IMG/VR virus record: IMGVR_UViG_3300032116_000612
Coordinates: 1 to 37,275 of that record
Reading direction: 5' to 3' (one strand)
Length of the DNA stretch: 37,275 nt
DNA from: a virus
A program made the translations under genes and the position numbers. The notes beneath the pieces are model-generated. The model was not told where the DNA came from and searched no databases. It worked only from the letters and a program-made list of their open reading frames with translations. Of the stretch, positions 30,639 to 36,992 are shown one piece after another (within the stretch, counting starts at the first letter, position 1; each line of letters starts with the position of its first letter).

Positions 30639-33600
30639 ATGTCTAACATGAACCCGCTCGAGAGTCACAAGCTGCTCGTTGCCAAGACAAAGGAGGCGAT
30701 CTCTTCGCATTTCCCGATCGAAGGCAACAAGCACAAGCTCGAGCTAGTTCGCATTGAGATTGAAGATGAGTCGGACAAGGGCTCGGCTCAATTCAACCCG
30801 GCTAACTACAATAGTCAGATTGATGCCAGGCTAAATGATCGTACCTGGGGTCCAGATATTGTTGGTGTATTTAAGCTAACAGATAAGGCATCTGGAAAGG
30901 TACTTGATCAGCGCTCTCGTACTCTTGGAAAATTGCCGAAGGTCACCACGCGCTACAGCTACATCATCAACGGTAACGAGATGCAGCTGGATGGTGTGTT
31001 TCGGTTGAACCCAGGCGCTTACCACGCAGAGGCACAGAACGGAGACCTGCTTGCCAAGTGGAACGTCGCCGCTGGTAGCAAGGTCGGTTCGTTCGATATC
31101 TACATTGAGCGTAGAGATCCTAAGAAGCTGGGCTTGATGACGATGAGCATCAAGAGCAGTGGAACTTCTACAGTTGATATCCCGATCTACCCAGTCCTCA
31201 GAGCCCTCGGTGTCGAGGATGCTCAGATTCAACGTGCTCTTGGGGACAAGCTTTTTGAGGTAAATAGAGACAAGAGCAAGATTAGCGATATCTTAAAATT
31301 TCATAAGGCCATCGAAGGTAGGGGCGCCTCCGACTACAAAGAGCCTTCGGTTTCGGAGGCCGCGAAATTCGCGAAGCAGACTTTTGAGTCTGCAGAAGTT
31401 AGCCCTCAAACGATGAAGTCGGCCTTTGGGAAGGAGTTTACCTCTATTACTGGAGAAGCACTTCTTCTATCTGCGAAGAAGCTCGTAGACATCAGCCGAG
31501 GAGATGTGCCCGAAGATGACCGGCAGTCCCTGTCAAACAAGCGGCTATACGGAATTGAAGACTTCGTCTCTGAAGAGCTTACACGCGGTAAGACAATTTA
31601 CGCGCTAACTCGAAAGATTAGAAATAACGTAGATAGAAAGACCACGATTCAGGACATTATTCCTGCATCTGCCGCGGGGTACGGAGCTGCAATCCTGAAG
31701 CCTTTTAAGGCGGGGCAGTTGCCCACCCAGACAAATCCTCTTCAGTTTTTATCAAACCATACGAAGACGACGATTCTGGGAGCTGAGTTCGGTGGAATCA
31801 AAGGAGAGAACGTCAATCTCCTCCCCGACAAGATGATCAACCCGTCGCATCTCGGCCTTCTGGACCCACTTCAAACACCCGAGAGTCAGCAGACTGGTAT
31901 TCATCTGCACATCCCTCTTGGTGCGCAGAAAGTGGGCCATGACCTTGTTGCGCAGGTAGTCAATGTTCGCACTGGAAAGATCGAGCGTAAGTCGGCTGCT
32001 GATCTCGAGCGCGCCGTAGTCGCCTATCCAGATCAGGTCAAGATTCAGAAGAACTCAGACGGCACTGTTAAAGTCACACCATTAGAATCCAATGTCATTG
32101 TCTACGATAATGATCGTAATACCTCCAAGAGACCGTGGAAGGACGTAGATTACGTTCTTCCCTCTGCCAAGCTTCTTTTTGCAGCTAGCGCAAACCTGGT
32201 TCCGTTTGTCCAGAACGACAACGGAAACCGCGCGATGATGGCTACCAAGCATCAGGAGCAGGCTGTCGGCCTCAAGAACCGAGAGGCACCGCTGGTCCAA
32301 ACTGCGGCAAGTGGAGGACTCGCGTATGAGGATCTAGTAGGCGGTACAGCCTCGATCTCCTCAAACGCAGACGGAGTAGTCAGCTCTGTGAATAAGGAGG
32401 AGATTGTTGTTTTAGGTACCGACAAAAAGAAGTATAGACATGCATTGTACAATAACTACCCTTTGAATGGGGCTAAGCATATGCTCCATTCTCAGCCGGT
32501 AGTAAAAGAGGGAGACAAGGTAAAGAAGGGTCAGCTCTTAGCAGACTCTAATTTCACTAAAAATGGTAAGCTCGCATTAGGCACGAATCTAAGAGTCGCG
32601 TATATTCCCTATCGCGGCTACAATTTCGAAGATGGTCTTGTGATCTCGGAGTCTGCGGCAGAGAAGTTGGTCTCGAGCCATCTTCATTCCGTAGAAGTAG
32701 AGATGCACCCGAATGTAGTCGTCAATAAAAAGATGTGGCGTCAGTATGCCGGAATGGTCAAAGCGACGCCGGCAATTCTCCAGAAGCTCGATGATGACGG
32801 AATTGTGCGAGTTGGGCAGAAAATAGAGCCAGGCGATGTCCTAATCGCAAAACTTCAAAAGCAGTCCCTCTCCAAGGACACCGAAGATATTCGTAAGAGA
32901 CTAAAGGGCGCGGTTCAGGATTACGTAGATTCTTCGGTGAAGTGGGATCACGAGTACGATGGAGTAGTTGCGCGAGTTGTAAACAACGGACGCAAGATTG
33001 CCGTCTTCATCAGAACTGAGCAGACGATGGAGGTCGGAGACAAGCTCTCTGGACGTCATGGTAACAAGGGAATTGTCACTAAAATTCTCCCCGACGATAA
33101 GATGCCCAAGGACAAGAACGGGGAGCCAGTTCACATTCTTATGTCTCCTGCTGGCATTCCGTCCCGTATGAATCCGGGTCAGGTTCTTGAGACCGCTGCT
33201 GGAAAGATCGCACTAAAAACGGGTAAGCCATTTGTAGTTAATAATTTCGATGCAGGTACAGACTATTCTCAGCTTGTAAAAGATGAACTAAAGAAGCACA
33301 AGATTTCAGATACTGATGAGCTCTTCGATCCCGAGACTGGAGAGAGCTTAGGTCAGGTTTTGACTGGGATGCAGTACATCCTCAAGCTTGATCATCAGGC
33401 TGAAAAGAAGATTTCCGCGCGAGGTGGTGGTTTCGGCTACGCATACAAGACGACCGGAGAAGCCTCGCAGGGATCTGGACTTGGGGAAGGCGGTCAGCGT
33501 ATCGGAGGCCTCGATACCTACACGCTTCTTGCGCACGGAGCGAAACACAACCTCCGAGAGATGCAGACCTACAAGTCCGACCGAGAGCAGGCGGAAGATG

Positions 33601-36600: not shown

Positions 36601-36992
36601 AGTTAGTTCCATTGTCTGAGATCGAGCTGAAGAACAAAGAACTCCGTGCTATGAGTAAGCGCGAGATTAAGCACTCGCCCCAGCTCAAGGCCATGAACAA
36701 GATGCCGCTTGCTGCCCAGGAAGACTGGATGGCGCGCCTAAACTTCCAGCGCCTTCAAGAGACGTACACTGAAGGTGCCGCGCAGAACTGGAAGTCTGAT
36801 ATTCACGGTCATCCCATTGCGGGTATCGCACACGGCGCAGAGTTCGGTCTCGAGCCTCCTGGCAGTCAGCCTTTACCCGCTGCTCCAAAAATCACGGATC
36901 GCGTGGTAAACATCCCGAAGGTTGTACCTCCGGGGAATCCAAAACCAACCCTTCCGTCTCAGAACAAGCCCGGCTTCTTCTCTTTCCTGTGA
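30639..36992 (+). CDS. Fused beta-beta' multisubunit-type RNA polymerase (2117 aa)
   Basis: A single chain holding both large RNA polymerase subunits. The start ATG 30639 has GGAG 7 nt upstream. ATG 30615 is in frame but lacks one. Beta landmarks: [18 protein letters not shown] (TPES at 413-416), [11 protein letters not shown] (about 660), [12 protein letters not shown] (from 800) and [18 protein letters not shown] (about 950-970). Beta' landmarks: [11 protein letters not shown] (about 1190), [13 protein letters not shown] (about 1286), catalytic NADFDGD (1401-1407, the Mg-binding Asp triad), zinc site C1725, C1787, C1794, C1797, and [17 protein letters not shown] (trigger-loop region, about 1820-1840). 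The N-terminal beta' zinc module is not seen. There are no alpha, omega or sigma genes in the window. The tail is Pro-rich. The position among virion genes suggests a packaged or late polymerase, which is inference. Confidence 0.95.
   Translation: [2117 protein letters not shown]

Follow-up and report, generated by a model that had tools for sequence, protein, structure and literature searches.

A single-chain beta-beta' RNA polymerase with a putative sigma partner and candidate promoter motif in a large phage clade

The RNA polymerase gene

The window, the whole stretch of 37,275 bases analysed here, is IMG/VR virus record IMGVR_UViG_3300032116_000612. Its plus strand carries at 30639-36992 an uninterrupted frame of 2117 codons encoding a single-chain beta-beta' DNA-dependent RNA polymerase (RNAP). 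The original prediction, made from the letters alone, described an intact phage fusion of beta and beta', and this was confirmed: the beta motifs it quoted come first, those of beta' follow, and no stop or frameshift separates the halves. A profile search with Pfam found RpoB-type domains 2, 6 and 7 (Rpb2_2; Rpb2_6, E = 8e-67; Rpb2_7, 3.3e-7) and then RpoC-type domains 2, 3 and 5 (Rpb1_2, 1.7e-32; Rpb1_3, 7.5e-9; Rpb1_5, 4.6e-25). There is an alternative in-frame ATG at 30615; the start at 30639 is preferred because of a Shine-Dalgarno-like GGAGAAG at 30628-30634 (+).

Both hallmarks of a two-barrel RNAP are present. The beta catalytic block, residues 800-811 (33036-33071, +), aligns with the E. 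coli block containing K1065 and K1073 and has the two lysines of the beta barrel (GDK..HGNKG), and the beta' barrel bears the catalytic NADFDGD at residues 1401-1407 (34839-34859, +). By alignment, the bridge helix, the trigger loop (region 36066-36158, +) and the second zinc site (Cys 1725, 1787, 1794 and 1797; 35811-36029, +) are all kept. The N-terminal zinc-binding domain of bacterial beta', which would fall at residues ~1060-1087 (33816-33899, +), is absent.

Residues 540-1475 were modelled with AlphaFold2 using 35 homologues (predicted local distance difference test, pLDDT, 86.1; predicted template modelling score 0.72), and Foldseek matched the model to bacterial beta chains with E = 5e-38. 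The beta/beta' junction, residues ~1016-1032 (33684-33734, +), consists in the alignment and model of the last beta helix, a tight hairpin and the start of beta'. Helix 466-477 of the model corresponds to residues 1005-1016, and strands 480-485 and 488-493 to residues 1019-1024 and 1027-1032. Beta' is thus predicted to follow the last beta helix directly through a short hairpin, with no long linker.

The gene might be an inactive or structural remnant that has lost transcription. DxDGD is found in 97 of 99 phage proteins, and very diverged members of the clade retain the catalytic aspartates, active-site lysines, bridge helix and trigger loop, which makes a remnant highly improbable. On these residues the gene is expected to encode a catalytically competent single-polypeptide RNAP core of bacterial type. 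It aligns T363, N373 and T378 with E. coli D516, H526 and S531, from which insensitivity to rifampicin is predicted.

Distribution of the fused gene

IMG/VR was scanned twice with profile guidance. Relatives were encoded by 320 stretches in one scan and 378 in the other, and the 80 best from each were retained; as these were the top-scoring loci, rarer split forms may be under-sampled. Among the fetched loci, 97 distinct ones have beta and beta' in a single frame, mostly of 2000-2240 amino acids (aa) and 31-100% identical to that of the window. One further IMG/VR contig encodes an identical RNAP protein (100%), and ten more have the same uninterrupted frame at 70-84% identity. The single-chain state is therefore the rule within a large phage clade, and the original prediction's description of the fusion as unusual does not hold. 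The DNA is of metagenomic origin, so an assembly or sequencing artefact was considered. Its probability is negligible, as the frame recurs uninterrupted in 97 distinct contigs and the cultured phages Arash and D69 likewise join beta to N-terminal beta'. In complete bacterial pairs, beta and beta' were unfused in 67 out of 67.

The apparent exceptions to the single frame are contigs cut at their ends, loci L242 and L229, and the cultured group of Salmonella phage Arash and Vibrio phages D69, D148 and D181. L242 has one in-frame TGA. The RNAP frame of L229 (9941-16006) has 11, four of them at alignment columns where most or all relatives have Trp, two of these columns being invariant. Because of these four, L229 is read as a fused RNAP in a phage that evidently translates TGA as Trp. 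In the cultured group, beta is joined to N-terminal beta' (~1525-1545 aa) and C-terminal beta' (~610 aa) is encoded by a separate gene; the break in Arash and D69 comes after the catalytic barrel.

The RNAP gene of this clade has also been invaded by introns and, probably, inteins. In-frame insertions of ~330-490 aa and LAGLIDADG type, probably inteins, lie at or near conserved RNAP motifs in L052, L072 (two), L103, L193 (identified there by sequence only), L196 and L257. The RNAP gene of D181 is interrupted by a group I intron (RF00028, 100.7 bits; L265 1952-2232) with a homing endonuclease gene.

Relationship to bacterial RpoB and RpoC

An IQ-TREE phylogeny of 32 sequences and 1913 columns was built without archaea or eukaryotes (no archaeal root) and without Helicobacter. 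A branch with 100/100 support parts the fused clade plus Arash and D69 from bacteria, from a Rhizobium phage beta' and from the Carin-5/GN1 phages; the phage clade lies outside the sampled bacteria and is not nested in bacterial RpoB/RpoC. It is likewise monophyletic in a FastTree of 98 sequences. Arash and D69 are either nested in the fused clade or sister to it (84.5/83 in IQ-TREE; nested in FastTree). The beta' N-terminal zinc-binding motif occurs in none of the phage rows of the clade, compared with 67/67 bacterial pairs, and is kept in Carin-5/GN1. The Rhizobium phage, RHph_TM21B, has a 1127-aa beta' gene (L268 11752-15135), for which tblastn revealed no beta partner in the same record.

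The original prediction named as an alternative a recent bacterial rpoB-rpoC fusion copied into a region resembling a prophage. Homology with bacterial beta and beta' is clear, but the nearest bacterial sequences are just 28-33% identical, all 67 complete bacterial pairs are unfused, and a search of a genome collection with family-specific patterns found no relative. Together with the monophyly of the phage clade, the clade-wide loss of the zinc-binding domain leaves a recent capture extremely improbable, and it was rejected on the tree and that loss. The separate clade and the shared absence of the zinc motif point instead to an old phage lineage with a common fusion and a common domain loss.

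A plasmid origin was also rejected, the listed plasmid matches being ordinary rpoB-rpoC. Records filed as phage that matched the query (Staphylococcus, Listeria, Acinetobacter and Salmonella contigs) were set aside, as they look bacterial with rpoB and rpoC separate. OR844998, OR846602, OR849902, CAKLQH020000005, AGRM01000005 and AFYI01000006 are apparently ordinary bacterial rpoB-rpoC of this kind, probably contamination or bacterial contigs.

Sigma factor and promoter-like motif

No alpha subunit was detected with PF01193 in any of 14 records, the control matching 13 of the 14. A divergent sigma factor of ~277 aa is encoded by five genomes (G002, G005, G007, G009 and G010), with weaker matches in Arash and D69, both of which show matches to sigma region 2. 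Pfam recognised Sigma70_r3 above its cut-off (3.4e-10) and region 4 slightly under it; the Pfam model for region 2 found none in the close relatives. The predicted structure (pLDDT 81) resembles solved sigma factors, with 149 Foldseek matches at E<=1e-3. A sigma profile matched 24 of 28 large contigs with a fused RNAP, the match in G031 being weaker than the others (1.3e-6). In a search of 50,697 phage records the same profile matched only Arash, D69, D148 and D181, five faecal fragments and, weakly at E 1e-3, a single cyanophage. A dedicated sigma-70-type factor thus appears to travel with the single-chain RNAP, which would be its user.

Motif enrichment in the upstream regions of G002, G014 and Arash was sought without prior assumption. 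A promoter-like motif, AAA-N~16-GG[T][C/T]ATAAG, recurs in the majority of the genomes examined, chiefly on the strand that does not encode the RNAP. In G002, GTCATAA occurs in 10/75 upstream regions (against 0.3), and an A-tract followed by GTCATAA has 47 overlapping placements compared with 0.75 in shuffled sequence. Genome-wide, GGTATAAG occurs 33 times in G014 (2.55 in shuffles), 28 of them opposite the RNAP strand, and 31 times in Arash (3.25 in shuffles), with 30 on the opposite strand. A-rich positions lie ~16 nt upstream of the motif in all three genomes, more weakly in Arash. D69 has GTTATAAG in 13 of 74 opposite-strand regions (against 0.2). As a control, a 50-kb stretch of T4 contained no GGTATAAG and 17 copies of TATAAATA, the known T4 late promoter. 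The strand bearing the motif in Arash holds genes for nucleotide metabolism, replication and tRNA; the other strand encodes the RNAP, both sigma factors and most annotated virion modules.

In the window, a promoter-like AAAA-N~15-GGTCATAAG at 30612-30638 (-) reads away from the RNAP gene. Its position is kept, with a variable spacer, in the examined relatives of at least 45% identity as GTCATAA, GGCCATAAG or GGCATAAG, a footprint that adds to the genome-wide enrichment in G002. GTCATAA also occurs at 24784-24790 (-), 36 nt upstream of the first open reading frame of the minus-strand replication block, with no clear A-tract. Position and enrichment suggest that these elements are promoters.

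Neighbouring genes

The gene at 27800-29872 (+) encodes a protein 32% identical over 491 aa to the annotated Arash portal gp204 (E = 8e-94) and 31% identical over 465 aa to a D69 protein, so the RNAP does adjoin a portal gene, as had been proposed. Pfam and PHROGs delimit a replication and recombination block at 11581-24754 (-), which includes RusA, a Cas4-like exonuclease, a Holliday junction resolvase, UvsX/RecA, a family A DNA polymerase, primase, a DnaB-like helicase, another DNA helicase and a uracil-DNA glycosylase superfamily protein (22274-22990, -). Two very large proteins of 1977 and at least 1180 aa, encoded at 4342-10275 (+) and 1-3543 (+), have no convincing family match and are possibly virion proteins. 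Two families that mark the mReC phages discussed below were also sought: PF03237 (TerL) matched 10 of 14 records at E<=0.1, two of them above the cut-off; PF07068 (gp23-type major capsid protein) matched none of the 14, and control genomes were likewise unmatched.

Proposed function

We propose that the phage sigma-70-type factor directs the single-chain core of the same genomes to phage promoters in the manner of a bacterial holoenzyme. The targets would be the AAA-N~16-GG[T][C/T]ATAAG elements, mainly before early and middle genes, whose strand is opposite to that of the structural genes. The RNAP itself would probably be synthesised late and enter the virion, to be injected at the outset of a new infection, because its gene adjoins the portal gene and the Arash sigma gene, gp10, lies among virion genes. 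For an enzyme encoded with late genes that serves early and middle genes, packaging is the simplest arrangement, as in N4 and P23-45 (PMC4496689, PMC10770324). The original prediction had offered packaging or late use; since the promoter data point to early and middle genes, packaging seems the better guess. Taken together, a sigma-dependent, alpha-free, single-chain RNAP that has lost the zinc domain, serves early and middle genes and is probably packaged is given a probability of roughly 0.55. The wider proposal, that a widespread tailed-phage lineage packages a two-protein sigma-dependent holoenzyme and injects it to read early genes from its own promoters independently of host RNAP, is put forward only tentatively, with the odds somewhat against it.

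Several observations weigh against this interpretation. The sigma gene is in neither the 37-kb window nor its 66.7-kb twin, both of which are fragments. The Arash record marks many genes as structural protein, but neither the RNAP genes, gp206 and gp216, nor the portal are so marked. The motif is weak, in few regions each, in four genomes (GGCATAAG in G036 and G033, GTCATAA in G012 and G005), and is absent from the G015 scan.

Other observations favour a different division of labour, in which the RNAP and sigma factor are made in early or mid infection and transcribe late genes, and the host RNAP reads GG..ATAAG before early and middle genes. The motif contains ATAA and its Arash/D69 form resembles an extended -10 element (TGnTATAA), which would make it usable by host RNAP. 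D69 has a second, distinct motif, TAAAATATA, on the RNAP strand (L365-L374), in 9 of 24 upstream regions compared with 0.2 expected. Arash and D69 also carry two sigma factors each, which makes the pairing of sigma and promoter ambiguous. However, the RNAP strand shows no common motif in the remaining genomes scanned, the opposite-strand motif has an A-tract and no TTGACA, the G002 form GTCATAA would be a poor sigma-70 -10 element, and the RNAP gene itself is within the late block. Late transcription by the phage enzyme is considered the less likely reading, and a sigma-dependent enzyme serving early and middle genes is preferred.

If correct, this would be a minimal RNAP of bacterial type, naturally without alpha yet still working with sigma. 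Such a holoenzyme of two proteins would be simpler to express and dissect than the cellular one, and a widespread phage group probably has a compact transcription apparatus of its own with promoter specificity. We know of no sigma factor used by the virion RNAPs of N4, phiKZ, crAss-like phages or P23-45. With cultured members at hand, Arash on Salmonella and D69, which came from a seawater/oyster sample, packaging and promoter use are open to direct test.

Comparison with known systems

Phage beta and beta' of comparable depth have already been published; the sigma pairing and the promoter motif are new here. In the open literature searched, supplements excluded, we found no description of the general single-chain state, the zinc-domain loss, the sigma partnership or the promoter class. 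The closest published group is mReC, metagenomic multi-subunit RNAP-encoding Caudovirales, some exceeding 200 kb (Weinheimer & Aylward 2020, PMC7481178). As in the part of that text available, the RNAP matches cellular beta and beta' profiles, has NADxDGD, stands amid phage hallmark genes and forms a deep clade distinct from cellular enzymes (here from bacteria, 100/100). In contrast, the same portion calls the enzyme multi-subunit, mentions fusion for crAssphage only, and describes neither a sigma partner nor a lost zinc domain nor a promoter motif. Judged by this published description, the two groups probably overlap.

The RNAPs of Arash, D69, D148 and D181 belong to the same clade as that of the window and share the fusion of beta with N-terminal beta', the loss of the zinc domain, the upstream portal and the sigma family. 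They differ in having C-terminal beta' in a separate gene, and D181 in its intron as well. This bears on how phage RNAPs split: Arash and D69 keep the join between beta and beta' and break beta' after the catalytic barrel, and the enzymes of jumbo phages are split at the same place in beta' (PMC7598289). The jumbo-phage RNAPs (phiKZ, AR9; PMC7598289, PMC7824862) are also phage beta/beta' homologues without alpha, but are very divergent and spread over several polypeptides, unlike the one frame of the window, and group 1 jumbo phages have no sigma (PMC7598289, PMC7824862). Cobetia phage Carin-5 and Yersinia phage GN1 likewise encode beta and beta', in Carin-5 with an annotated sigma adjacent; theirs, however, are two genes in the order beta'-beta, which keep the zinc-binding domain and lie outside the fused clade.

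The RpoBC fusion of Helicobacter and Wolinella, as cited in PMC1557499 (Zakharova 1999), is cellular and about 2900 aa; it has beta and beta' in one polypeptide in common with the window but is an independent event. Both barrels are also in a single polypeptide in crAss-like gp66, the P23-45 RNAPs and YonO (PMC10770324), among which P23-45 gp96 is a virion RNAP for pre-early genes (PMC10770324). Those enzymes form another two-barrel clade, barely recognisable by sequence (PMC10770324), whereas the RNAP of the window matches bacterial profiles over most of its length.

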